DNA of 56,290 nucleotides from an uncultured Bacteroidales bacterium. GTDB lineage: Bacteria; Bacteroidota; Bacteroidia; Bacteroidales; Bacteroidaceae. Positions 1 to 56,290 of this stretch are shown here, in pieces. Where the stretch lies: contig CACYQI010000015.1 of the NCBI GenBank assembly GCA_902776455.1, positions 1-56,290 on the forward strand, given 5' to 3'. Numbering within the stretch: position 1 is the stretch's first letter; each line of letters starts with the position of its first letter. A model generated the notes under the pieces. That model saw only the letters and a list, made by a program, of their open reading frames with translations. It ran no database searches and was not told where the DNA came from. A program made the translations under genes and the position numbers.

Positions 1-3000
1 ATAGAACATATCAGTGGTAACGGTTTCCGTATGCTAGGCAGTTCGCGCTATGCTGTTCCGTATCTACTGAGTAACCAATACTTCATCGGCGAAACTGCAT
101 ACTCTGGCAATGCCTACTATGACATCTATCCCATTGACCTCTCCGACGCAGGCCTCACTGCTTGGCAAGTCATATGCAATAATGCTCCTGACAATGCACA
201 GATCACCTGCTCTCGCAGTGATGTGAAAGGTTTGATGTCTGTCTATAAGAATGGCTACTTCTTCCTACCTACAGGCGTAACACCCGAGGAGGGCGACTTC
301 ACTTTGGGTGGAGCCAATGGCATCACCATAGACGCCACAGCACACGTCATCACCCTTTCTTACGACCCGAATCTTGCCATTGTTGCTGACGGTGTTACTG
401 TGGAGCAAGGCTGGCAGACAGCAGGTCGGGACAGCGAGGTAATGCTGCTTCGTGTCACAGCTAAGCCCTTTAAGGCTGCTACGAACACAACGCTTACCGT
501 CAGCCTCAAGGACGGTTCTGAAAGTAACATCTCAGCCTTGAAGCTTTACGAAGCCAACTCCAGCTCACCTGAGATCTACTCTACAGGCGACGGAGCGCCG
601 ACAAAGACAGTGGTCGCTACAGCAACCATCTCTGGCCCAACCGCCACATTCAACATCGGCAACCTCACTGCTGGCACGCACTACTATTGGATTGGTGCTA
701 CGGTGAGCAGCACAGCCACTCTTGGTGCTATCATTGATGCAGCCGTAACGGGCATATCCTATCAGGTGGAAGGCCAGACGGCACAGAACCTCGACCTGAC
801 CTCTGTTGGCGACCCTGCCGACCGTGGCGCTATGGTCTTCAATGTACGCAGCTATCCCTTCCTGCCGCGTGACAATGGCAGCCGCGTCTATCGTATTCCT
901 GCCATGATTGTTGCTGAGGATGGCAGCATCGTAGTGGCAGCCGACAAACGCTATCAAAGCTATACCGACATCGGCGGCGGTCACGTCATCGACATCGTCG
1001 TTCGTCGCTCTACCGATGGCGGCAAGACATGGAGCGAACCCGTCACCATTGCTAAAGGCTTAGGTACTGCCGACAATAACAGGTGTGGCTTCGGTGACCC
1101 CAGCCTCGTGAAGGGTAAGGACGGTAAGCTCTACTGTCTCTTCGCTGCAGGCAACCTCGGCTATTGGTATGGCCAGAAGCATATCTGTATGTCCACCAGC
1201 ACAGACAATGGTGTGACGTGGAGCAGCAGCGAGAGCAATCCTCCCGTCGATCTCTACTCTACTGGTGCCATTCAGAACGCCACAGGTGTTGGTGCTGCCG
1301 GCGGCTACGGTCTCTACGACTACTTCGTCACTTCCGGCAAGGGTCTCTACACCTCCGACGGCATACTGATGTACCTCATCCCTGCACAAACTCTGACAGC
1401 CAGCAACTACACCATCACCGACGGCACTTATTGGGGTGCTGCTGCAGACGACTACCTGTTCTATTCCACCGACGACGGTGCTACCTGGTACTTCAGCCAA
1501 ACGCCTATGATTATCGGAGGCGACGAAGCAAAGGTGATTGAAATGAATGACGGCTCGCTGTTCGGTTCTATCCGCAAGGGAGGTGCACGCCGCTTCAACA
1601 CCGCCACCTACACAAAGAACGACGACGGCAAGACGCTCAGCTTCACGTATGGCACGCAATGGGACAACGACCAACTCCATCAGGACAGCCAGAACAATCA
1701 GGACATCTACTATTACCAGCGCGAAACAACAGAGGGCAAGACCGACGTCATCATCCACTCCATCACAACGGGCAACCACGTCAACTTCAAGCTCTTCTAC
1801 AGCACCGACCAGGGTGTCAACTGGACAGAGTTCCTGAACGTGCAGACCAAAGGCACACGCTATGTGACGATGGACAAGAATCCGGCCAACGGCAGCCTGT
1901 ACCTCTTCTTCGAAGACCAGAGCCTCAACAGCGCAGGCGGCTACACCGACTTCAACCACTATCCCTTGAACTTCATCGAGATTACGCGCGACCAGCTCGT
2001 AAGCCTCATTCCTGCTCTGGAGGAATACAATGTGCCCGAATACCTGGAGGCAAAGGATGTGAAGATTGTCCACGGATTATCTGGCGAAAGCAACTTCGGC
2101 TCGTGGAGCGGCCTCACCTGGACGTCTAATGCTGCCAGCGGAGTTGCCGGGCTGACCATGACACTGAGCGACGGCTCATATAACAGATTCTCCTCATTGA
2201 ATGGTGTTTACAATCTGGCTTATAACCCCGCCGCAGCCAACACCAACTCCACCATAACGCTGACGGCGCCCACGGGCTATGTCATCACTGGCTATTCCGT
2301 ACAAACAGGTGTATATCAGGCTGCCACATACACATTGACGGCTTCTGACGGTACATCCGTTACTCCTGCCAACCTCGGCAGCACCTACACGCCTCTCGAG
2401 GTTTCGGGCTTGTCGGCAACATCAACTGCCATCACCGTCACCACGACTGATGCCAGCAAGTGGCTGTCTTTGGCTAACTTCACTGTTTCCCTTGCCAAGA
2501 CTCTCCCGCTCAATGTCGTGGGCGACAAGAGCTATGCAACGCTCTACCTGCCCTTCGACGTGACGACGACCGGCGCAACGAAGGCTTACTATGCTGCTAA
2601 GGTCAACAACGGCTCCGTACAGCTGACCGAGACATCGGGCGAAGGCACGGAGATTCCTGCCAACACCGCCGTGGTGCTCGTCAATGAAAACGGAGAAGCA
2701 AGCGCTACCTTGAATATGACTACTGGACTCACCTCCGTGGTCAGCGAAAGCGCGAACCTGCTGAAGGGTACTTTGGTGCCGATGAGCCTCGACCTGGGCG
2801 ATGCTACAAGCTACTACTCATTGGGCAATTATAACAGCGTGATCGGCTTCTATAAGTTCGAAGGCGGAACCATCACCCTCGGTGCCAACAAGGCCTATCT
2901 CGAAGTGCCTGCAAGCGGCGACGTCAAGGGCTTCACCTTCGACTTCGACGATGATGCAACTTCAATAAATGAAGAATTAAGAATGAAGAATGAAGAATCT

Positions 3001-4702: not shown

Positions 4703-5007
4703 GACTGGGAATTTATAACCACAGATTAAGCGGACTGGACGGACTAAGATTGGTCTATAAAACAACGGATTGAACGGATTTGACGGACTTCGACTGGATT
4801 ATAAAACCACAGATTGAGCGGATTCAACTGATTAAAAATGGATTATAAAACAACGGATTGAACAGATTGGACGGATTAAGACTGGACTTTATAACCACAG
4901 ATTAAGCGGATTGAACGGATTGGGAAGGGATTTATAACCACAGATTGAGCAGATTCAACGGATTATGAATGGATGATGACCACGGATTGAACGGATTGGA
5001 CGGATTA
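4703..5007 (-). repeat. 44-bp tandem array, left arm (about 7 units)
   Basis: Seven consecutive units of 44, 44, 44, 44, 44, 43 and 42 bp. Each reads ...TTATAACCAC-AGATTAAGCGGATTGAACGGATT... on the plus strand. It is the reverse complement of the array at 5614-6009, so the two form an inverted pair about 600 bp apart. The array begins 6 nt after the SGNH stop codon. Confidence 0.9.
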
Positions 5008-5052
5008 TTACTAAACTACGAATTACGCGAATTGGCTGAATTATAATTTATT

Positions 5053-5102: not shown

Positions 5103-5183
5103 AATAAGATTCAAGCATTTAGCGTAATCCGTGGGGGACGCATTCAAGCCTCGCGAAGAGACGTGCAATGGAGCCCCGTTTTA

Positions 5184-5268
5184 CACTCCACGGAGAATCG
5201 GCTTACACTCCACGGAGAATCGGCTTACGCTCCACGGAGCATCGGGCTACACTCCACGGAGAATCGGC
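5184..5268 (+). repeat. 22-bp tandem array, locus 1
   Basis: Four units of 22 bp built on CACTCCACGGAG(A/C)ATCGG. The core CTCC-AC-GGAG is an imperfect palindrome. The flanks are unit-like, with TTTTACACTCC on the left. Confidence 0.9.
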
Positions 5269-5307
5269 AAGACGGGTACGGATATGAGCGGGAAGGGATG
5301 CGCTTCC

Positions 5308-5414
5308 TCTCCCCTCCCCTTGGAGGGGAGGGGTTGGGGGTGGGGGTGCTAAGTCGATTGGATGAATTGAGTCACAGACCCCACCCCTAGCCCCTCCCCT
5401 TGGAGGGGAGGGGA
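5308..5414. repeat. Pair of G/C-rich hairpins (CCCCTCCCC...GGGGAGGGG)
   Basis: Two copies of CCCCTCCCCTTGGAGGGG in inverted arrangement about 80 bp apart. The first runs into GGGGTTGGGGGTGGGGG on the plus strand and the second is preceded by the complement of that sequence. The same family recurs at 12800-12856, 22346-22456, 51636-51735 and inside the receptor gene at 53295-53368. Confidence 0.85.
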
Positions 5415-5425
5415 ACCGCGGCTCA

Positions 5426-5507
5426 CACTCCACGGAGCATCGGGCTACACTGCACGGAGCAACGGGCTACGCTCCACGGAGAATCGGGCTACGCTCCACA
5501 GAGCATA
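5426..5507 (+). repeat. 22-bp tandem array, locus 2
   Basis: Four units of the 22-bp family in the same orientation as 5184-5268. One unit has CTGCACGGAG and the last has CTCCACAGAG. The array ends in GAGCATAAAA, a boundary also seen at 51101-51160. Confidence 0.85.
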
Positions 5508-5613
5508 AAACCACCCCCTCTGAAGGTACTCTTCGCAACACGCGTAGCACCATACTTTTCAACACGAATTGCACGAGTCTCACGAATTGACTTCGCCCTC
5601 AACTGACAAGGAA

Positions 5614-6009
5614 AATCCGTTCAATCTGCTTAATCCGTGGTTATAAAATCCCTTCCCAATCCGTCCAATCCGCTTAATCCGTTGTTATAAAATCCCTTCC
5701 CAATCCGTCAAATCCGTTCAATCCGTGGTTTTATAATCCAATCCCAATCCGTCCAATCCGCTCAATCCGTGGTTATAAAATCCCCTCCCAATCCGTCAAA
5801 TCCGTTCAATCCGTGGTTATAAAATCCCTTCCCAATCCGTTCAATCAGCTTAATCCGTGGTTATAAAAACCCTTCCCAATCCGTCAAATCCGTTAAATCC
5901 GTTGTTTTATAATCCAGTCTTAATCTGTTCAATCCGCTCAATCCGTTGTTTTATAATCCAGTCGAAGTCCGTCAAATCCGTTCAATCCGTTGTTTATTAT
6001 AACATCTCG
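5614..6009 (+). repeat. 44-bp tandem array, right arm (9 units)
   Basis: Nine units of 44 bp each. Within a unit, AATCCGT-type 9-10 bp sub-repeats occur three times, followed by GGTTATAAAATCCCTTCCC. The array is inverted relative to 4703-5007. It ends 56 nt from the stop codon of the convergent esterase gene. The stretch 5515-5613 between arrays holds only further short repeats (CACGAATTG type) and no gene. Confidence 0.92.
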
Positions 6010-6065
6010 TGTAATCCGAGTAATCCGCGTTAGTGGGCGTTGGGGGTGCGGTGTCCCTCCCTGCC

Positions 6066-7112: not shown

Positions 7113-7220
7113 CACGCAAATTTGGAAAAGAGTGTACTGCCGCATGGCAGCATTCGCGCCCCGCAGCCCCCTGAAAGCACGTCCGGAGGCTGCTGTCCGA
7201 GCGCCCCATGCTGACTGCCT

Positions 7221-7249
7221 CCCTATACATTATTATATATATTATATAT
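7221..7249 (+). repeat. AT-rich element abutting the guaA start
   Basis: CCCTATACATTATTATATAT and the following AT run end at the guaA ATG. The first 22 nt are identical to the reverse strand of 55078-55099, which encodes LYIIIY in the receptor signal peptide. A related AT stretch (TTCATTATATATAATATATA) lies at the end of the sugar-transferase gene near 47737. Confidence 0.65.
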
Positions 7250-8800
7250 ATGCAGCAACAGAAGATTATCATCCTGGAATTCGGTTCGCAGACGACACAA
7301 CTGATAGCCCGCCGCCTTCGCGAACTCGACACCTTCTGCGAGATACTGCCCTACAACAAGTTCCCCGCCGGCGACCCCGACGTCATCGGCGTCATCCTGT
7401 CGGGCAGTCCCTACAGCGTCTATGACCCCGAGGCCTTCCGCGTGGACCTCAACCAGTTCCGGGGACGGATGCCAGTCCTCGGCATCTGCTACGGAGCACA
7501 ATACATGAGCCACACGCTCGGCGGCAAGGTGGAACCTGCAGGCAGTCGGGAGTACGGACGTGCCAACCTCACCACAACCGACTTCAGCGACCCGCTCTTC
7601 AAGGGATTCGACGAGAACAGCCAGGTATGGATGAGCCACGGCGACACCATCACCGCGCTGCCCGACGGCTTCCACGCCATAGCAAGCACCGAAAAGGTGC
7701 ACTACGCAGCCTATGCCGCTGACAATGAAGCGATTTGGGGCGTGCAGTTCCACCCCGAAGTGTTCCATTCATCGCAAGGAACTCTGCTCCTGAGGAACTT
7801 CGTCGTCGATATCTGCGGCAGCCGGCAGGACTGGTCGCCAGCCAACTTCGTAGAGACCACCGTCCGCGAACTGCGGGAGCAGATAGCCGACGACCGCGTC
7901 ATTCTCGGCCTCTCGGGAGGCGTTGACAGCACCGTCTGCGCTGTCCTGCTCAATCAGGCCATCGGAGAAAAGCTGACATGCATCTTCGTGGACCACGGAA
8001 TGTTGCGCAAGAACGAGTTCCGCAACGTGATGAAGGACTACGAATGCCTCGGACTGAACGTTGTCGGCGTAGATGCCAGCAAGCGATTCTTCGCAGACCT
8101 CGACGGCGTGACCGACCCCGAACAGAAGCGCAAAATCATAGGCCGAGACTTCATCGAAGTGTTCAACGCCGAAGCAAAGAAAATAGTAAATAGCAAATCG
8201 TCAGATAGTAAATGCAATTGGCTTGCCCAGGGCACCATCTACCCCGACCGCATCGAGAGCCTCAACATCACCGGCAAAGTCATCAAGAGCCATCACAACG
8301 TGGGCGGCCTGCCTAAAGAGATGAACCTCAAGCTGTGCGAACCCCTGAAATGGCTCTTTAAGGACGAAGTGCGACGCGTAGGCAAGCAGCTGGGCATCCC
8401 CAGCCATCTCATAGGACGCCACCCGTTCCCCGGACCCGGACTGGCTGTCAGAATCCTCGGAGCCATTACGCCCGAAAAGGTGCGCGTCCTGCAGGAAGCC
8501 GACGACATCTTCATTCAAGGACTGCGCGACTGGGGCCTCTACGACCAGATATGGCAGGCGGGAGCCATCCTGCTCTCAGAGGTGCGGAGCGTAGGCGTCA
8601 TGGGCGATGAGCGTACCTACGAGAACCCCGTCGCCCTGCGGGCTGTCACGAGCACCGACGCCATGACCGCCGACTGGGCACACCTGCCGTACGACTTCCT
8701 TGCAAAGGTCTCGAACGACATCATCAACAAAGTAAAAGGAGTGAACCGCGTCTGCTACGACATCTCCTCGAAGCCGCCTTCGACCATCGAATGGGAATAA
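7250..8800 (+). CDS. guaA: GMP synthase (glutamine-hydrolysing)
   Basis: Converts XMP to GMP with ATP and glutamine in the cytosol. The start is set at 7250 ([14 protein letters not shown]), since residues from the upstream ATG at 7208 are encoded by an AT-rich repeat. The N-terminal amidotransferase has Cys80 (LGICYGAQ), His168 and Glu170 (VQFHPEV). The ATP-pyrophosphatase loop is SGGVDST at 222-228. The C-terminal dimerisation domain ends in the typical KPPSTIEWE. The length is 516 residues. Residues 311-322 ([12 protein letters not shown]) lie where Bacteroides GuaA, from memory, has a short link before [10 protein letters not shown]. This segment is encoded by a repeat also found between genes at 47897-47929. 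All catalytic parts are intact, so the protein should work. Confidence 0.97.
8181..8213 (+). repeat. In-frame repeat inside guaA (33 bp)
   Basis: AAATAGTAAATAGCAAATCG and the next 13 nt match the intergenic copy at 47897-47929 at 30 of 33 positions. Two frames of the repeat contain stops; the frame used here is open. It encodes most of the extra segment before [10 protein letters not shown]. Confidence 0.85.
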
Positions 8801-11992: not shown

Positions 11993-12031
11993 ACTATGCT
12001 TTCCCAAGTACCCTCAAGAGGGGGCGTTTTA

Positions 12032-12207
12032 CACTCCACGGAGCATCGGGCTACACTCCACGGAGCATCGGGCTACACTCCACGGAGCATCGGCCCACAC
12101 TCCACGGAGCATCGGCTCACACTCCACGGAGCATCGGCTCACACTCCACGGAGCATCGGCCCACACTCCACGGAGCATCGGCCCACACTCCACGGAGCAT
12201 CGGCCCA
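12032..12207 (+). repeat. 22-bp tandem array, locus 3 (8 units)
   Basis: Eight head-to-tail units of exactly 22 bp, the longest array of this family in the window. CTCCACGGAGCATCGG is invariant; the rest varies between GCTACA, CTCACA and CCCACA. There are no unique spacers. Confidence 0.95.
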
Positions 12208-12232
12208 CAAAGCAGTAAGTGTAAAAAGAGAT

Positions 12233-21925: not shown

Positions 21926-22189
21926 CGACTTTTTATGCGATTTGGCCTATAAATAAGGTACAACATTATTTTTTTACCGATATTTTAGCAATCTTACCGA
22001 AATTAAGGGTAGATAAATACGCAAAAAGATGTTAAGACGATGTTCACACGGAAAAAGGGAAAATCTGCAGAAACGATGATTTGCATCCCAAAAAGGGAGA
22101 GAAAAAATGAAAGTAGTCCACGGAAAAAGTTCAAAGGCGAGGAAGGAGGCAGACATAGGGGTAAGATTCCCCAGTCGAGGCGATACATT

Positions 22190-22342
22190 CCTACGACGCG
22201 TGGAGCATCGCCCGATACAACGTGGAGCGTGGGCCGATCCTCCGTGGAGCGTGAGCCGATCCTCCGTGGAGCGTAAGCCGATCCTCCGTGGAGCGTGAGC
22301 CGATGCTCTGTGGAGTGTGAGCCGATGCTCTGTGGAGTGTGA
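22190..22342 (-). repeat. 22-bp tandem array, locus 4 (reverse orientation)
   Basis: About seven degenerate units of the 22-bp family, here read as CTCCGTGGAGCGTGAGCCGAT on average. The orientation is opposite to loci 1-3. The array runs directly into the G/C hairpin family. The 21930-22189 stretch upstream holds no recognisable gene or repeat apart from AT-rich sequence. Confidence 0.8.
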
Positions 22343-22345
22343 GCC

Positions 22346-22456
22346 GCGGTTCCCCTCCCCTCCAAGGGGAGGGGCTAGGGGTGGGGTCTGTTACTCCCTG
22401 AATGCCACCAACTTATCTACCCCACCCCCTACCCCTCCCCTTCGAGGGGAGGGGAG
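22346..22456. repeat. G/C-rich hairpin pair
   Basis: CCCCTCCAAGGGGAGGGG followed by CTAGGGGTGGGG, then about 40 nt, then the inverted copy ending CCCCTTCGAGGGGAGGGG. It is the same two-copy inverted arrangement as at 5308-5414. Confidence 0.8.
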
Positions 22457-43425: not shown

Positions 43426-43493
43426 TTCAACAAAAGGGGAATCTGACGGAACTCTCAGCCTCATGGAAAGGCACTCCGCGGGGGAGGGTTTTA

Positions 43494-43574
43494 CGCTCCG
43501 TGGAGCATCGCCCGATGCTCCGTGGAGGAAAGCCCGATGCTCCGTGGAGTGTAAAACCCACCTCCACGGAGCAT
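43494..43574. repeat. 22-bp family, locus 5 (mixed orientation)
   Basis: Three CTCCGTGGAG cores and one CTCCACGGAG core. The copies point towards each other, so the array is itself an inverted repeat: GGTTTTACGCTCC ... CACTCC complement ... GTAAAACCC. It could act as a bidirectional terminator between the convergent thiD-like and wzc-like genes. Confidence 0.75.
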
Positions 43575-47852: not shown

Positions 47853-47929
47853 AAACAGCAAACAGTAAATCGTTAAACAGCAAATAGTAAACCTTTAAAT
47901 AGTAAATAGTAAATCGTCAAATCGTAAAT
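47853..47929 (+). repeat. AGTAAAT/CGT short repeats before 47937
   Basis: Imperfect copies of AACAGTAAATCGTTAAACAG and AAATAGTAAATCGTCAAATC run up to 8 nt before the next start codon. The 33-bp block at 47897-47929 matches the in-frame segment of guaA (8181-8213) at 30 positions. A shorter relative lies at 49390-49430 before rny. The rest of the 47751-47936 gap shows no gene. Confidence 0.85.
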
Positions 47930-47936
47930 AACCATC

Positions 47937-48563
47937 ATGTCTATATTCAGTAAATTATTCCGCCGAAACAAAGCGGAAGAGCAGACGAAGGCAGGAGGCA
48001 TGGAGGACTTCATGCTTCTCATCCGCGTCTATTACCAGGCAGTGATGGCGGCACAGCTTGGTATCAGCAACTTAGCCGCGCTGCCCGACCTGCGCATCTT
48101 CAAGCAGACCTACCGCGTCACTACGCTCAACAACAAGCTCGGCCTTGCTGAGAAGAAGTACTGCCGCAAGCTCATGCAGGACATCTACAATGTGAGCGAC
48201 GGCTTCTTCACAGAGATTGACGGCAGCATCCGCAAGCATTGCCGCAAGATACAGGACGCACAGAGCTACCTCATTCAGTTCCAGGGCTTCAGCCAAGACC
48301 TGATGATGCTCATGGGGAACCTCATGCAATGGAAGATGCGACTGCCCAGTTTCTTCCGCGGAGCACTGCGCGAGATGACGGCAAAGCAGATTCACCAAGT
48401 GCTGACGAAGAACGAATGGAAGGACGAAGGCGTGCGTCGCGCCTGCTTCTCTGTACGTAGGTATCAAAGCATGCTCGACTATTCAGAACAGTGGATGACT
48501 GAGTATGTATATACCATCGTTATGCTCGCAAAGAAGGAGCCAAAGAAAAATAGTGACCAATAA
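47937..48563 (+). CDS. Conserved hypothetical protein
   Basis: A 208-residue, mostly helical, basic protein without a signal peptide or membrane segment (MSIFSKLFRRNKAEE...). The repeated pattern of hydrophobic and charged residues (LLIRVYYQAVMAAQL, KYCRKLMQDIYNVSDGFF, MLMGNLMQWKMRLPSFF) suggests a helical bundle. I do not recognise a domain. It lies directly upstream of the coiled-coil/zapA/rny group but is separated from it by a promoter at 48566-48596. Its own transcription may come from the sugar-transferase promoter. Codon use is like its neighbours. The ORF quality and length support a real gene; no function is proposed. Confidence 0.75.
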   Translation: MSIFSKLFRRNKAEEQTKAGGMEDFMLLIRVYYQAVMAAQLGISNLAALPDLRIFKQTYRVTTLNNKLGLAEKKYCRKLMQDIYNVSDGFFTEIDGSIRKHCRKIQDAQSYLIQFQGFSQDLMMLMGNLMQWKMRLPSFFRGALREMTAKQIHQVLTKNEWKDEGVRRACFSVRRYQSMLDYSEQWMTEYVYTIVMLAKKEPKKNSDQ

Positions 48564-49362: not shown

Positions 49363-49434
49363 ACCCTGAGCAAACAACATTTCAAAGAGTAAGCAAACAG
49401 TTAACAGTAAATAGTTTAATCGTAAATCAAGAAC

Positions 49435-50997
49435 ATGACAGTAGATATCATTGTAGCCCTCTCGGTTGCCATCATAGTGTTCTTCGTCCTTGTGGCCGTA
49501 TGGTACTTCGTGGCCGTTCCTTCCAAGCGAAAGGCTCTGGCCGAAGAGGCACGCGAGAACGCCGAGAAAGAGGCAGAAGTCATCAAGCAGAAGAAACTGC
49601 TTGAAGTGAAGGAGAAGTTCCTGAGCAAACGCACGGAACTCGAGAAGGAAGTGCGGCAGCACAACCAGCAGATACAGCAGGCCGAGAACCGCATCAAGCA
49701 GCGCGAGATGCAACTCAACCAAAAGCAGGACGAACTGACGCGGCGCAAGCAGGAAGCCGACGCCCAGCGGCAACGCATGGAGACACAGCAGGCACTGCTC
49801 GAGAAGAAGGAGGAAGAGGTGAAGGCACGCTTCTCCGACCTCATCAACCAAGAGCGGACCAAGCTCGAAGAAATCTCCGGACTCAGCGTCGAAGAAGCAC
49901 GCGAGCGACTCATCGAAACGCTGAAGGACGAGGCTAAAACCAATGCCGCCGCCTACATCAACGAGATAATGGACGATGCACGCATGACGGCTACGAAGGA
50001 AGCTAAACGCATCATCATCCAGAGCATACAGCGCGTCGCCACCGAAACGGCCGTAGAAAACTCCGTCACCGTCTTCCACATCGACGACAACGACGTGAAG
50101 GGACGCATCATCGGACGCGAAGGACGCAACATCCGCGCACTCGAAGCCGCCACTGGCACCGAGATTGTCGTGGACGATACACCCGAAGCCATCGTCATCA
50201 GCGCCTTCGACCCCATCCGACGCGAGATTTGCCGACTGGCTCTTCACCAGCTCGTTAGCGACGGACGCATACACCCCGCACGCATCGAGGAAGTGGTGGC
50301 AAAGGTCAAGAAGCAAATCGAAGAGGAAATCCTCGAAGTGGGAAAGCGCACCACCATCGACCTCGGCGTACACGGACTGCACCCCGAACTCATCCGCATC
50401 ATCGGCAAGATGAAGTACCGCAGCAGCTACGGACAGAACCTCCTCCAGCATGCTCGCGAGACGGCCAACCTCTGCGCTGTCATGGCCTCCGAGCTGGGTC
50501 TCAACCCCAAGAAGGCGAAACGCGCCGGACTGCTGCACGACATCGGCAAGGTGCCCGACGAGGAACCCGAACTGCCACACGCTCTCTACGGTGCCAAGCT
50601 TGCCGAGAAGTACAAGGAGAAGCCGGAGATCTGCAACGCCATCGGTGCACACCACGACGAGATGGAGATGACTACGCTGCTCGCACCCATCGTGCAGGTC
50701 TGCGATGCCATCAGCGGAGCACGTCCCGGAGCACGTCGCGAGATTGTAGAAGCCTACATCAAGCGACTCAAGGACCTCGAGGACATCGCCATGAGTCACC
50801 CGGGCGTCGTCAAGACCTACGCTATCCAGGCTGGCCGCGAACTGCGCGTCATCGTCGGAGCAGACAAGATTGACGACAAGCAGACCGAGCTGCTCAGTTC
50901 GGAGATTGCTACACGCATACAGAACGAGATGACCTATCCCGGCCAAGTCAAGATAACGGTCATCCGCGAGACACGCTCCATCGCCTACGCCAAGTAA
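49435..50997 (+). CDS. rny: Ribonuclease Y
   Basis: A 520-residue membrane-anchored endoribonuclease that starts mRNA decay. The N-terminal helix ([20 protein letters not shown], 4-23) anchors it. A long Lys/Glu/Gln-rich coiled coil covers about 30-190. A KH domain follows (about 205-270, [19 protein letters not shown]). The HD domain has HARE in [11 protein letters not shown] and the metal-binding HDIGK. The family end [13 protein letters not shown] is intact. It is the last gene of the zapA group and has its own strong terminator 28 nt on. Short AGTAAAT repeats lie just before the start codon at 49390-49430. Confidence 0.97.
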
Positions 50998-51050: not shown

Positions 51051-51100
51051 CGTATCCTGATTGTAGGCTTCAGCAGAGGTCAGCACAGGGGGCAGTTTCA

Positions 51101-51160
51101 TGCTCCACGGAGCATCGGCTTACGCTCCACGGAGCATCGGCTTACACTCCACGGAGCATA
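51101..51160 (+). repeat. 22-bp tandem array, locus 6 (3 units)
   Basis: Three units of CTCCACGGAGCATCGGCTTAC type, ending in GAGCATAAAAC as at locus 2. It is 50 nt after the rny terminator. Confidence 0.85.
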
Positions 51161-51259
51161 AAACAACACTCCGCAGGGCGAACATTTGTTCGTGCGGATT
51201 TGCAATCCGCACGCGTTGGGTGTAGGGATTTGTAATCCCGAAGGAATATCATCGCATTT

Positions 51260-51893: not shown

Positions 51894-54800
51894 TCACTTC
51901 TTCTTCGGCTGCTTCTGGAACTTATACATGATGTGCAGGAGGCCGTATCGCGGCAGGACATTGGTGTAAGTCTCTGTTCGGCCTTGGGCGTTGATGGTGC
52001 GCGTGACGTTGGAGAGCTGCCCGAGGATGTCGAAGCCATCAAGCATCACGACCCACTTGCCCTTGAAGAGCGCACGGGCCAGGCGGGCGTTCCAGACGAC
52101 ATCGGCTGTGTTGAGGCTCGCATCGTTGTAGCCTGTGCGCCCATAGAGCGTGAGGTCGGTGGTGAGGTCGAACTTCCAGGGCAGGTGGACGATAGCGTTT
52201 GCGCCGATGCGGTACTGCCAGGCGTTGATGTTCTGGAACGTCGAGCGGTCGCTCGTATAGCGGTTCCAAGCCACATCCGACGAGAAACCAAGGGTGTGTT
52301 TGCCCAGCGAAAGACTGACTTTAGGCGAGAAGGAAAGCGTGGCACTCTTTACCAAACTTCTGTTGCTGGTAATCTCTTGCTCCTTGCCCCCTGCCTCATG
52401 CTCCTCACTCATCAGGTCCACGCTGTTCCTAAAGCTGAACTGCGTGACCATGCTGGCGCTGTGCTTCTTGCCGTCACCAAAGCTGTAGTTGATGGTGTGC
52501 TTGGCCGAAGCGTCCCAGTTGCCGTTGACATTCGTGGGACAGAACGTGCGGCGGCCGGTCGCGCGGTCGTAGATCTGACCCATGCCTATCGCGTTGTGGG
52601 TGAAGCCATAGCTGAGGTCGACGCGGTTGTGCATACGCTTGTTCATCGAATACAGGTTGCCGTCGAGGACCGCGTCGGTGCGGATGGCGTATCGCAAGTC
52701 AGGGTTGCCGATGCGGATGTTCATGGGGTCTGTGTCATCGACGATGCCTGCCTCGTTCAGAAGCTCAGGCGCTTCGCTCCTCACCCGGACTTCGAGTCCG
52801 GCATGATGACCTTCCTTAGTCCTCAGCCAAGGCTTTGTCTTGAACTCGAACGTCGGGCTGAAACGGTGGAGAAGGGTGTCTATGCTGCCTCGCTCGTAGT
52901 CGTGCCGTTGTGCATTCAGCGTGGCATCAATCCTGAAATCAAGGTAGAACTGACCCCACTCCTTCTGCCCCAAGCCGTATTTGAAGTCGGCCCAAAAGGC
53001 GTTTGTGTTGTCAATGTAATGCGCCAGATGACTGTTCGTGCGGTCGAAGACCTGCTGATATTCGGTCACGCTTGGCAGCAAATCGATGGGGTTAGAGAAG
53101 CTTGAGTCGGCATTCGCCAGGCGGTCCAGGCGGTAGATGCTCTCCTGCTCGCGCTGATTGCTGTGGGAGAACCAATAGCCCAACACGAATTGTCGGTAGT
53201 GTTCGCCAAGGGAGAAGGTATATTGGACGAAGGGATTGAGTTCGAACTTGCTGCGAGGCGGGGTGTCGATGTATTGGTGGCGGAACAAAGGACCAGCAGA
53301 CCCTCCCCAACCCTCCCTTAAAGGGAGGGAGTTCTCCCCCTTTAAGGGGGAGTTAGAGAGGGTCTGCTGTCGGCTGAACTCCTGCCTTTTGTTCTCCTTG
53401 TAGCTGGCGTTTATGCCGAAGTTCAGGAAGTCGCCCGTGCCCTTTATCTTCTTTGTCTCGAACAGACTGGCGTTTGCCTCAATGTCGTGCCCCGTGCCTT
53501 TGCTCTCGCGCAGCTGGCGGTTGATGAGTGTGTCGCGCAGGTTCGGACGGGGAGATGTCGGGGAGAAGAGATCGTCGAGCAACTGGTGGCTGACCTCGAC
53601 GGGTGCAGAGAAGAGGGCCGACGTGCTGCCGGAGGCGTTCCGGAAGTAGCGGTAGCGGGCATCTGCCATTGCCTGTGTCCGCAGTCGATTGCCTTTATAG
53701 ATGAAGCGGTGCCACGTCGAGACGTCCCACTCTTCGTTCTTCATGTTGCCGAAGCCGTAGTCGTAGGTGTCGCCGTCGGGCAGGAAGGTCTGCGTCGTGG
53801 TGTGCGTGTCCTGCCATTCCTTCGCATGATGCGCCTCGACATAGACAAAGTAATCGCGCTTCTTGTCATCGGACATCAAGTTGACATCCACGCGGGCCAT
53901 CTCGTTGCGACTCAGTTTGCCGGACCTGTCGGGCTGCCATCCATCGCTATATGGCATGTCGCCCGAGCCTTCGTCGTTCAGGTTGTTGGCCTTGGCATAG
54001 AAGCGTATGTTCGACCGCTCGTCGCTCCGCATGGCGAAGAGGCGTGCCAGGTAGGGCGTCTCATCCTGTCGAAGACCTGCTCCGGCCTCGATGTTTGCTA
54101 TCCAGCCCACCATATATTCGCGCTTCAACCGCACGTCGATGACGTGGTGTTGACTGCTCTCGTCGGTTCGTCCGAGCCATTCATTTTCCTCGGTCTGCTT
54201 GTCATAGACGGCCACGTCCTTTACCGTGTAGGCCGGAAGGTTCTCGAGCATGAGCTTCCGATTGCCTTGAAAGAGGTCCTTGCCATTGAGCAAGAGGTCG
54301 TCCACGAACTTGCCATTGTGGTAGATTCGCCCGTCGCTCTTGAGTTCGACGCCCGGCAACTGCTTCAACAAGGCGTCGAGCATCGAACCTTCGGCCAGTT
54401 GGAATTGGCTGGCATCGTACACGACGGTGTCGCCCCTGAAGTAGAATCGGACGCGAGATGCCTTGACGGTCACCTCCTGGAGGGTCTTCGAAACCTTATG
54501 AATATAGAAGGGCGAGACATAGCGCGACGTTTCCCGTCGGCCCACACGGTCCACTTCATAGCTAAAGCAAGTAGTCCGGTAGTCGTCCATCGAAATGCGG
54601 AAGATGTAGTGGCGGGGCAGAGCGGGCACCTCTATGTTGTAGCGTGGCATGTCGTAGTCCACTTGTCGTCCGCTTCCGTCGAAGTAGAAAGCGCTTTGCC
54701 TGGCACGCACCGAGTCGATGAGCGTGCTGTCCTCACTGAGGAGTTCCACCTTCGCATCCATCAGATACTGGCGTGTGCGGGCATCGCAGACCACACCGGA

Positions 54801-55112
54801 GAGCTTGATGGTGCGCGGCTTGTAGCGTGTGTCGTACTGCACAAAAATCTGCTTCTCCTTGACTTTCACCTTGACGGGCTGTCCCTGGCAGAGCCGTTTG
54901 ATGGCGTCCATCATCGAGAGACCATTGAGGCTGACGTGGACGGGAAGGGTCTCGAGGTCGTTGGCGATGAAGTTGATGGTGTATTCCGTCTGCATGTCGC
55001 GGAGGACGGAAAGTGCTGTGGCGAGCGATTCGCCGCGGAAGGTCAGGTCGCGAGCCGAGAGGCTCAGCCCGAAGCCTATATATATAATAATGTATAGGGC
55101 GAGTCGTTTCAT
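51894..55112 (-). CDS. TonB-dependent receptor-like outer-membrane protein with STN domain
   Basis: A 1072-residue outer-membrane protein. The signal peptide (MKRLALYIIIYIGFGLSLSA) is partly encoded by an AT-rich repeat. Residues 21-95 are an STN domain (LTFRGESLATALSVLRDM...HVSLNGLSMMDAIKRL), used by TonB transducers to contact an anti-sigma factor. A regulatory-like domain with IKLSGVVCDARTRQYLMDAK follows (about 103-215), then a plug-like region (TLQEVTVKASRVRFYFRGDTV, MLDALLKQLPGVELKSDG) and a long barrel of the OMP beta-brl_3 type. It overlaps the anti-sigma gene by 4 nt (ATGA). Residues around 590-615 (SNSPLKGENSLPLREGWGGS) come from an inserted G/C repeat, probably in an extracellular loop. 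Likely role: receptor that activates the sigma factor upstream. Confidence 0.87.
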   Translation of the reverse strand: MKRLALYIIIYIGFGLSLSARDLTFRGESLATALSVLRDMQTEYTINFIANDLETLPVHVSLNGLSMMDAIKRLCQGQPVKVKVKEKQIFVQYDTRYKPRTIKLSGVVCDARTRQYLMDAKVELLSEDSTLIDSVRARQSAFYFDGSGRQVDYDMPRYNIEVPALPRHYIFRISMDDYRTTCFSYEVDRVGRRETSRYVSPFYIHKVSKTLQEVTVKASRVRFYFRGDTVVYDASQFQLAEGSMLDALLKQLPGVELKSDGRIYHNGKFVDDLLLNGKDLFQGNRKLMLENLPAYTVKDVAVYDKQTEENEWLGRTDESSQHHVIDVRLKREYMVGWIANIEAGAGLRQDETPYLARLFAMRSDERSNIRFYAKANNLNDEGSGDMPYSDGWQPDRSGKLSRNEMARVDVNLMSDDKKRDYFVYVEAHHAKEWQDTHTTTQTFLPDGDTYDYGFGNMKNEEWDVSTWHRFIYKGNRLRTQAMADARYRYFRNASGSTSALFSAPVEVSHQLLDDLFSPTSPRPNLRDTLINRQLRESKGTGHDIEANASLFETKKIKGTGDFLNFGINASYKENKRQEFSRQQTLSNSPLKGENSLPLREGWGGSAGPLFRHQYIDTPPRSKFELNPFVQYTFSLGEHYRQFVLGYWFSHSNQREQESIYRLDRLANADSSFSNPIDLLPSVTEYQQVFDRTNSHLAHYIDNTNAFWADFKYGLGQKEWGQFYLDFRIDATLNAQRHDYERGSIDTLLHRFSPTFEFKTKPWLRTKEGHHAGLEVRVRSEAPELLNEAGIVDDTDPMNIRIGNPDLRYAIRTDAVLDGNLYSMNKRMHNRVDLSYGFTHNAIGMGQIYDRATGRRTFCPTNVNGNWDASAKHTINYSFGDGKKHSASMVTQFSFRNSVDLMSEEHEAGGKEQEITSNRSLVKSATLSFSPKVSLSLGKHTLGFSSDVAWNRYTSDRSTFQNINAWQYRIGANAIVHLPWKFDLTTDLTLYGRTGYNDASLNTADVVWNARLARALFKGKWVVMLDGFDILGQLSNVTRTINAQGRTETYTNVLPRYGLLHIMYKFQKQPKKK
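53295..53368 (-). repeat. G/C-rich palindromic repeat inside the receptor gene
   Basis: Bounded by AGCAGACCCTC and its exact complement GAGGGTCTGCT. Inside are two hairpins, CCCTCCCTTAAAGGGAGGG and CTCCCCCTTTAAGGGGGAG, of the family found between genes. The reading frame stays open and gives SNSPLKGENSLPLREGWGGS. Confidence 0.85.
55078..55099 (-). repeat. AT-rich element in the receptor signal peptide
   Basis: The minus strand is identical over 22 nt to the guaA leader at 7221-7242. Here it encodes LYIIIYI in the hydrophobic core. Confidence 0.7.
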
Positions 55113-55744
55113 TGCTTGCCCCCTTTCTTCTCGTCCGATTCGACGTAGAGCATGTAGAACTCCCTCCTGACGTTGAAGCCGTCGAACATGTTCAGCGTCT
55201 CGAGGAACTCGTTGAGTGTCTGCGACGTACGGCAGGTCATGTAGAGTCGGAGACCTTGTGGAGCCTTGTCTTTGAAAGCCACTTGGCAGTCGTAGTGCCT
55301 GCCGACGATGGCGAGGATGCTGTCCAGGCGGACGTTCTCGAAGCGGAAGATGGTGTCGCCGTCCTGCACGTCGTAGTAGTACCGCTCAGTCTCGACGGCC
55401 GTCGTGTCGGGCTTCGTCGGGCTTTTCGGCACGTCGTTTCCGATGGTAAAGGCTTTGTAGCTGGCCAGCGACATGATGCCGAGGAAGGCGGCGGCAATGA
55501 AGATCGCCGCAAAGCGGCGAAGTGAAGAGTGAAGAGTGAAGAGTGAAGAATTTGCTACCGCCGTAGTTTCTGCGAGCGATTCTTCATTCTTAATTCTTAA
55601 TTCTTCATTTAGAAGTAGCCACGCCTTCTCTGCATCCGGCTCCCTGTCAAGTTCCGCCATCATCGCTTCGAGCTGCTCGTCGGAGTAACGCTCCGGGTGC
55701 TCCTGCATGTCGAAGAACACCTGTTTATCGTCCATAGGGTTCAT
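55109..55744 (-). CDS. Anti-sigma factor (FecR-related, DUF4974-type C-terminus)
   Basis: A 211-residue inner-membrane protein; Met at 55744 or 55735. The cytosolic part (1-76) should bind the sigma factor. One membrane helix spans about 78-96 (AAIFIAAAFLGIMSLASY). The periplasmic part has FRFENVRLDSILAIVGRHYD and a TLNEFLETLNMFDGF end, as in the DUF4974 domain of Bacteroidetes FecR proteins. The central FecR domain is missing, so this is a short form. Both ends overlap neighbours by ATGA, giving sigma, anti-sigma and transducer in one transcript. The cytosolic linker (NEELRIKNEES, then NSSLFTLHSSL) is made of two repeat families read in frame. Confidence 0.82.
   Translation of the reverse strand: MNPMDDKQVFFDMQEHPERYSDEQLEAMMAELDREPDAEKAWLLLNEELRIKNEESLAETTAVANSSLFTLHSSLRRFAAIFIAAAFLGIMSLASYKAFTIGNDVPKSPTKPDTTAVETERYYYDVQDGDTIFRFENVRLDSILAIVGRHYDCQVAFKDKAPQGLRLYMTCRTSQTLNEFLETLNMFDGFNVRREFYMLYVESDEKKGGKQ
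55519..55610 (-). repeat. Two in-frame repeat blocks inside the anti-sigma gene
   Basis: 55578-55610 is the 33-bp block shared with the sialidase gene (2967-2999; 32 of 33 identical). 55519-55551 is a separate array of GTGAAGA words on the plus strand, encoding NSSLFTLHSSL. They lie next to the membrane segment, on the cytosolic side. Confidence 0.85.
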
Positions 55745-56290
55745 AAGCTGCTGGGATTAAAGTGTTTCTTGATGGACGTGATGATGTGCGAGAGGTGTTT
55801 CCACACGGCAACTTTGCTGATGCCCTCCGCCGCGGCAATCTCCTCGTAGCTGTAACCTTCGTTGAAACGCATGCCGAAGATGCGTTGCTCCTGTGCCGAG
55901 AGATGGCTGACGACGTACTCCACGATGTCGTCAAGCCTGTCGTCCGACGAACATTGACCATTGAACATTGACCATTGAACATTATCCGCCGACGAACATT
56001 GACCATTGGACATTGAACATTGACCATTGTGTATTGAATCTTCGCCATTATTGGCTGTGCCATTTGCCGCTGCGAAATGGTCAATGGTCAATGGTGAATG
56101 GTCAATGGCCTTGTGCCTGAGCCGCTTCAGACATCGGTTCCTGACGCTCGTCATCAAGTAGCGTTCCTCCGTACCCGGCACGAGAACCGTCTCGCCACGA
56201 AGCAGGCTTTCGAAGATGTCCTGACAGACATCCTCGCTCTCCTGCACGTCGTAGAGCAGGGTGCGCGCCACCCTCTGCATCCGTGCGTAG
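55741..56290 (-). CDS. ECF-type RNA polymerase sigma factor, 5' end outside window
   Basis: The frame continues upstream of the Met at 56280 to the window edge (YAR before MQRVARTLLYD), so the gene is cut. Sigma-2 is present from ARTLLYDVQESEDVCQDIFESLL, the usual region 2 motif, to YLMTSVRNRCLKRLR. Sigma-4 is complete: SHLSAQEQRIFGMRFNEGYS followed by YEEIAAAEGISKVAVWKHL, the helix-turn-helix. The linker between them is about 50 residues, far longer than normal, and is made of repeat DNA (HNGQCSMSNGQCSS and similar). It should direct RNA polymerase to genes controlled by the receptor downstream. Its stop overlaps the anti-sigma start (ATGA). Confidence 0.9.
   Translation of the reverse strand, partial: YARMQRVARTLLYDVQESEDVCQDIFESLLRGETVLVPGTEERYLMTSVRNRCLKRLRHKAIDHSPLTIDHFAAANGTANNGEDSIHNGQCSMSNGQCSSADNVQWSMFNGQCSSDDRLDDIVEYVVSHLSAQEQRIFGMRFNEGYSYEEIAAAEGISKVAVWKHLSHIITSIKKHFNPSSL
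55946..56110 (-). repeat. In-frame repeats inside the sigma-factor linker
   Basis: ATTGACCATTGAACATTGACC words and their complement (AATGGTCAATGGTCAATGGT) fill about 165 bp. A 45-bp in-phase duplication starts with GACGAACATTGACCATTG at 55946 and 55991. The peptide shows the pattern NGQCS three times. Confidence 0.88.

Follow-up and report, generated by a model that had tools for sequence, protein, structure and literature searches.

How does an essential gene come to carry, in its reading frame, a copy of a repeat that lies between genes elsewhere in the same genome? The question is raised by guaA, an essential gene coding for the glutamine-hydrolysing GMP synthase, in the window analysed here, a 56,290-nucleotide stretch from the genome of an uncultured Bacteroidales bacterium whose relatives are Bacteroidales of the gut. 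A preliminary description of this DNA, made from its letters alone, had singled out a 33-base block of guaA as an in-frame copy of an intergenic repeat. The features concerned are collected in Table 1; L and G numbers denote loci and genomes, respectively.

Table 1. Features of the window bearing on the guaA block
Feature	Position	Strand	Basis and remarks
guaA, glutamine-hydrolysing GMP synthase, 516 aa	7250..8800	+	NCBIfam NF000848, 752 bits; PDB relatives
Heptad repeat copy, 7+7+7+1+7 core, in frame in guaA	8181..8213	+	30/33 identity to 47897-47929
Codons V313-N323, opposite four codons (TDAK) of relatives, net +7 residues	8186..8218	+	Alignment of relatives
Intergenic array of the guaA heptad repeat	47853..47939	+	Reaches start codon at 47937; repeat search of window
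More diverged heptad copy, 24/33	49395..49437	+	Reaches start codon at 49435

The 33-base block of guaA

The guaA product matches its profile, NF000848, with 752 bits (cut-off 400) over residues 6-516, the start having been set, by our choice, at ATG 7250, with the longest open reading frame beginning at 7208; a single full-length guaA match, with no internal stop, is found in the genome. The preliminary description had given the block as agreeing with intergenic 47897-47929 at 30 of 33 bases and as having stops in two frames, with the open one used by guaA. Both statements were confirmed: the coordinates are correct, the best match in 60 second-order Markov simulations of the window, searched on both strands, reaches only 21 of 33 bases, and on the sense strand frames 0 and 1 contain stops and frame 2, that of guaA, is open. 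The antisense strand has a stop in one frame and two open frames. The block is the 33-mer of lowest GC content in guaA (24% vs 59% for the rest of the gene), and its closing ATG (8211-8213) does not fall in the reading frame of guaA.

A gain of about eight residues, at about 312-321, had been expected from a shorter link in Bacteroides; the gain relative to the shorter link of relatives and its place in guaA stand, with the net gain corrected to seven residues and the altered residues to V313-N323. On the alignment, the change reads as a replacement of 12 bases by 33 rather than a clean insertion. No target site duplication is seen at the block, 12 host bases having been replaced, in a comparison whose nearest relative is 7% diverged in protein.

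The preliminary description had also proposed modelling the structure, with a surface loop in mind. In the GuaA model (mean pLDDT 76, residues 324-363 under 50), the segment coincides with the end of helix 290-315 and is modelled with low confidence, pLDDT falling below 50 at 317-319. The model being of middling quality, the assignment to a loop relies on this helix end and on the gap that faces the segment in three solved GMP synthases.

The heptad family in the genome of origin

Other window copies match the guaA block at 26 of 33 bases (47875), 25 (47853) and 24 (49395 and 47860). A heptad probe of 21 bases, with at most two mismatches, finds 119 matches in the whole genome, compared with 4 for the reversed probe. 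The sample of the genome used for closer analysis comprises 20 stretches and the window (434,290 bases), several stretches having been picked for known heptads, so that sample densities are not genome densities. In this sample the usual form is AAATNGT three times, one extra C or T, and AAATNGT again, which places the family among long simple sequence repeats with tandem seven-base units, here with an extra base after the third.

The heptad core of the matched intergenic copy stops 11 bases upstream of a start codon. The leaders corresponding to its array contain heptads of variable length in L185, L186, L187, L189 and L190, and none in L188 and L191, where roughly 30 bases were viewed. Of 39 intergenic copies in the sample, 11 stop within 0-20 bases upstream of a start codon on the same strand (random placement, mean 0.9 and maximum 6 in 2000 trials), and none does so before one on the opposite strand. 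Summed over per-genome tables that include overlapping matches, the 61 genomes of the genus (the own one and its 60 relatives) contain 266 matches of the heptad element with ATG after a gap of 3-8 bases, compared with 40 for GTA, which has the letters of ATG in another order. The intergenic heptad thus looks like a part of gene leaders, and may be a translational leader element.

The sample holds further families, namely AGAGTGA-, CAATGGT-, AATTCAT-, TTGAAAG- and GGGCAAG-type heptads and CTCCCC palindromes, with 13-mers occurring at up to 24 places, compared with 4 in fourth-order Markov sequence. The CTCCCC family displays, at its 11 sample places, a recurrent left end of about GACCCYCTCTAACTC together with inner palindromes, and at a few of them a right end resembling GGGGAGGGTC.

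The GuaA loop in relatives

The GuaA rows compared comprise (i) the best 30 loci, (ii) the best 80 of 592 matches and (iii) further rows, and are best matches rather than a random sample; with the window's duplicate, an incomplete gene and 14 rows identical to others removed, 118 distinct rows are left. The loop is short in 90 of them, holds the heptad in 12 and is long in another way in 12, several of the latter encoding Gly runs. In addition, it contains a CTCCCC palindrome in two rows (L010 and L036, both of genome G013), a tandem octamer (octad) in one (L007) and an inverted repeat with 34-base arms, 32 of them matched, in one (L035).

The preliminary description had regarded the insertion as recent, and its presence with different codons in all close relatives as the finding that would speak against this. 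Such a pattern did not appear: the aligned sequence KKITDAKW, with both flanks intact and without the heptad, is found in L031, L003, L004, L005, L006 and L037; of these, L031 stands closest to the window's GuaA on the tree, at 93% identity in the columns used. The claim is supported, with 'recent' taken as relative: L002 (91% identical) and ten more distinct rows share both repeat and site, so that some heptad copies in GuaA may be old or shared by recombination. We infer that the direction of insertion was from intergenic DNA into the gene.

The heptad inserts of distant species stand in one common register, and 10 of the 12 heptad rows end in Cys-Arg before Trp, the window having Cys-Asn and L152 Phe-Lys, a pattern that common descent or gene conversion would produce as well. 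Measured against the best of 30 shuffles, the inverted repeat is strong in L035 (32 vs 10 matched bases) and weaker in L010 (14 vs 11), L036 (13 vs 12) and L007 (12 vs 11); none of at least nine matched bases occurs in the heptad inserts of the window, L002, L042 and L152, or in the inserts of L025, L097 and L103. Among the named records, those with the heptad (L042, L059, L063 and L069) come from metagenome assemblies, and the short loop is present in all five isolates read (L048, L058, L066, L093 and L096); since 12 distinct rows keep the heptad in frame, assembly error is an unlikely source.

As a separate observation, genome G013 has two full-length, diverged guaA genes, L010 (G013:C57) and L153 (G013:C44), with a CTCCCC-type insert in the same loop, which are either paralogues or the product of a mixed assembly.

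Distribution on the tree and resident families

On a GuaA tree made without the variable columns, in which 50 of 114 inner branches have support below 80, the heptad state requires at least 10 changes, six of them forced by well-supported branches; with shuffled labels the mean is 11.6, and 34 of 500 trials give a value this low, which means that the heptad rows show scarcely any clustering. The minimum is 17 changes for insert versus none and 22 for all states, these counts, like that for the heptad, not separating gains from losses. The likeness of the flanks above the gene average is 0.068 for heptad/heptad pairs and 0.064 for heptad/short pairs (p = 0.54, pairs of at least 97% identity excluded), and filled pairs leave a small positive residual in the regression (0.012, s.e. 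0.003, the pairs not being independent). Because the flanks of heptad pairs are not clearly more alike, a wholesale transfer of filled guaA segments is not supported.

The three loop families tested are all present elsewhere in the genomes concerned. The heptad count has a median of 14.5 in the 10 genomes with the heptad in GuaA and of 1.5 in 42 others (Mann-Whitney p = 0.0024; p = 0.0067 minus the own genome), and the GuaA copy is nearer the family consensus as genome copy number rises (Spearman 0.70, p = 0.023, n = 10), statistics that ignore kinship and rest on counts including the GuaA copy where it matches. Heptad-rich genomes with a short GuaA loop also occur (G036 with 61 matches, G050 with 42 and G035 with 38). 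The octad gives 19 matches in G053 and 53 in G003, both with an octad in GuaA, and none in 41 of the 61 genomes, overlapping matches and those within guaA being included; this association alone is weak and not significant (chance about 0.10). The CTCCCC palindrome gives 24 matches in G013, of which its guaA genes account for two, and none in 48 of the 61 genomes.

Other loops and other genes

Two further places of GuaA vary in length. Around residue 158, a difference of at least three residues is seen in 19 of 109 relatives, with CAATGGT heptads in L042 and an AAAGTTC-like heptad in L102, both identified by peptide. Near residue 428, 69 of 109 differ to this extent and most share one conserved segment, so that the place is mostly rejected as a repeat site; only single rows look repeat-derived, such as L028 (G003), where the octamer is also matched at the DNA level.

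The preliminary description had concluded that the process reaches core genes, which is borne out for threonine synthase by comparison with relatives. The thrC gene of the same genome contains a CTCCCC-type insert near residue 100 and a heptad near residue 277, the latter with a peptide nearly equal to that of guaA. Loop 277 has no insert in most of 29 relatives, and by peptide a CTCCCC-type insert in L156 and L164 and a heptad-like one in L159 and L167. Repeat-like stretches, recognized by repeat content, also occur in glucose-6-phosphate isomerase (NF010697, 650 bits), a 23S rRNA methyltransferase (TIGR00479, 213 bits), a PurM-type protein (AIRS domains) and a family 43 glycosidase.

With genes called by a simple codon-score finder, all eight heptads within called genes of the sample share strand and frame, the sole sense-open one, and 44 lie outside genes. 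Of these, only the guaA and thrC copies are flanked by coding score at both ends. The remaining six sit in the final quarter of the gene, and the frame bias may for this reason partly reflect read-through gene ends. The single sense-open frame also helps to explain the near-identical guaA and thrC peptides, and makes the shared register weaker as a sign of common descent. Altogether, the sample contains 662 repeat segments, 509 intergenic, 43 partly in genes and 110 inside genes, the last including chance motifs (e.g., VIDPS in L117) and gene ends. A strict rule (at least 18 bases, coding score on both sides) leaves 22 repeats in 15 of 265 called genes, a count from which guaA is missing, its segment having been trimmed to 13 bases.

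Origin of the loop sequence

Sequence comparison places the guaA block in its repeat family, reveals its absence from close relatives and marks the GuaA loop as a recurrent landing site of different repeat families. The reading that we consider probable is that resident repeats are copied into genes and that a copy persists where its open frame coincides with a loop able to tolerate it.

Descent from one or a few old heptad insertions into guaA, followed by many losses and the exchange of short segments between species, would account for the common register, for the Cys-Arg-Trp that closes the insert in 10 of the 12 rows, for the grouping of six of the more decayed or altered copies (L018, L028, L029, L059, L063 and L152) in one 14-row part of the tree, and for the small positive flank residual. 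It is at odds with the changes on the tree (at least 10, six forced, gain and loss not told apart), with other repeat families at the identical site, with the flank test and with a copy freshness that tracks genome copy number; moreover, the register is also expected from the single sense-open frame, the thrC peptide being nearly the same. As a general account it is unlikely, and for part of the heptad rows old shared insertions with loss or short-tract exchange are possible. A dedicated mobile-element system, MITE- or REP-like and moved by a transposase, fits the CTCCCC family, with its repeated left end, inner palindromes and occasional right end, and the inverted repeats that exceed 30 shuffles in L035 and, more weakly, in L010, L036 and L007. 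The four heptad inserts tested lack such inverted repeats, however, and host bases are lost at guaA where a target duplication would be looked for. The Y1 transposase (PF01797, the sole transposase family searched) gives three partial matches in the own genome, the best of 25.9 bits against a cut-off of 23, and none in the repeat-rich G020 and G036; insertion by such a system is distinctly improbable, and RAYT-driven REP dispersal is not supported, the Y1 matches being weak and partial or absent.

That local slippage or low complexity within guaA gave a chance look-alike draws on the report, in a passage of PMC4679880, that, of all long simple repeats, those with heptanucleotide units are commonest in most genomes, with slippage proposed for them (Mrazek 2007). 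This explanation is hardly credible for the block, whose GC content departs from that of the gene and whose 7+7+7+1+7 arrangement, with the extra base, is the pattern of the genomic family: chance and low complexity are rejected on the simulated maximum of 21 against 30 observed, and slippage in place is rejected on the close relatives, whose KKITDAKW offers no seed. Selection of the block for a function in guaA, such as a translational signal as in the leader copies, would find an analogy in the intergenic copies that end just upstream of start codons (11 of 39, 0.9 expected), but the closing ATG is out of the guaA frame, close relatives lack the block and some rows have unrelated repeats at its position, which makes such a function highly unlikely.

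Under the landing of resident repeats, the guaA block would be a copy of the family that resides between genes in its own genome. Copies probably enter without regard to frame or strand, through a process needing little homology, for which template switching and microhomology-mediated repair are candidate routes; selection would then retain those that are open in frame, hydrophilic and placed in a surface turn. GuaA with the block presumably stays functional, as its single copy, open frame and full-length family match suggest. It thus seems that repeated 'junk' DNA is recurrently made into protein sequence. More tentatively, and in our view at somewhat less than even chances, a general copying process, tied to no single transposase or palindrome, spreads many unrelated short families in this group of Bacteroidales, the leader-like element among them, and repeatedly rewrites the same few loops of essential enzymes from the intergenic repeats of each species.

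If true, core enzymes in one group of animal-gut bacteria would repeatedly gain loop sequence from dispersed non-palindromic repeats, and one loop would accept different repeats in closely related species. This would point to a yet-undescribed dispersal process and provide a natural insertion series, at a single site of one essential enzyme, for studying the tolerance and taming of foreign sequence. It would also caution that repeat-filled loops mislead alignments and trees.

Comparison with known repeat systems

Rickettsia palindromic elements (RPE; Ogata et al. 2000, 2002) are described, in passages of PMC10969869 and PMC3733652, as lying in frame in working genes. On this description they resemble the present repeats in comprising several families per genome, in frame in unrelated metabolic genes and each with a conserved peptide; insertion in frame into unrelated protein genes is found here for guaA and thrC relative to relatives. 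They are, however, palindromic, hairpin-forming and about 150 bp long, whereas the guaA repeat is a 7+7+7+1+7 tandem of about 33 bases without a hairpin (no inverted repeat of at least nine matched bases in the window insert), and, unlike in the RPE as there described, unrelated families recur at one loop across species.

The GTAG and CGTC REPs, according to a passage of PMC3733652, are short, mostly intergenic and sometimes located in genes of known proteins, traits in which the heptad resembles them. As characterized there, REPs are tagged hairpins (palindromes of 20-40 bp with a GTAG or CGTC tag), the GTAG ones being tied to RAYT transposases, whereas the heptad block forms no hairpin and RAYT-type matches are weak. 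The terminal inverted repeats of MITEs are likewise absent from the heptad block, the left end of the CTCCCC family being suggestive.

Also comparable are the TAACTGA heptamer direct repeats before start codons of Beggiatoaceae, Cyanobacteria and five Bacteroidetes, reported in passages of PMC4679880; like the heptad, these are intergenic heptamers, often directly upstream of starts, in some Bacteroidetes. They differ in sequence and, in the passages concerned, include one set in a purC gene and no recurrent in-frame use in core genes. For Porphyromonas gingivalis, the relevant part of PMC5771137 describes MITEs and no in-frame case, and among the matches listed in the open-licence literature searched there is no report of in-frame repeats of this sort in Bacteroidales. 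In-frame repeats in working genes are already known from Rickettsia and the REPs, and start-codon heptamers from Beggiatoaceae; what differs here is the non-palindromic heptad and the occurrence of several unrelated families in the same loops.

Further repeats in the window

Repeats of other families also stand in frame in genes of the window, of which three, from their sequence, we take to be FecR-like, sialidase-like and ECF-sigma-like. AAGAATG-type heptads are located in the FecR-like gene at 55515-55605 (-), where they are arranged as an inverted pair (NEELRIKNEES ... ANSSLFTLHSSL), and towards the end of the sialidase-like gene at 2972-2998 (+); CAATGGT-type heptads occupy 55930-56042 (-) in the ECF-sigma-like open reading frame. 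A large TonB-dependent-receptor-like open reading frame contains, at 53303-53358 (-), an in-frame CTCCCC palindrome pair (NSPLKGENSLPLREGWGGS) of the family seen in L010 and L036.

An AT-rich TATATAATATATA-type stretch occurs near start codons at 7227-7250 and 55079-55093, and also in L124 and L130, and is read in some called genes as an N-terminal YIIIYI or similar. In a stretch without a called gene, an array with a 44-base period and its inverse copy lie about 0.7 kb apart (4714-5019 and 5570-6053), with arms of 227 bases that are 81% complementary. Finally, arrays of a 22-base unit (ACACTCCACGGAGCATCGGCTC type) occur between genes in both orientations, at 5148-5532, 12018-12226, 22170-22360, 43470-43572 and 51065-51185.
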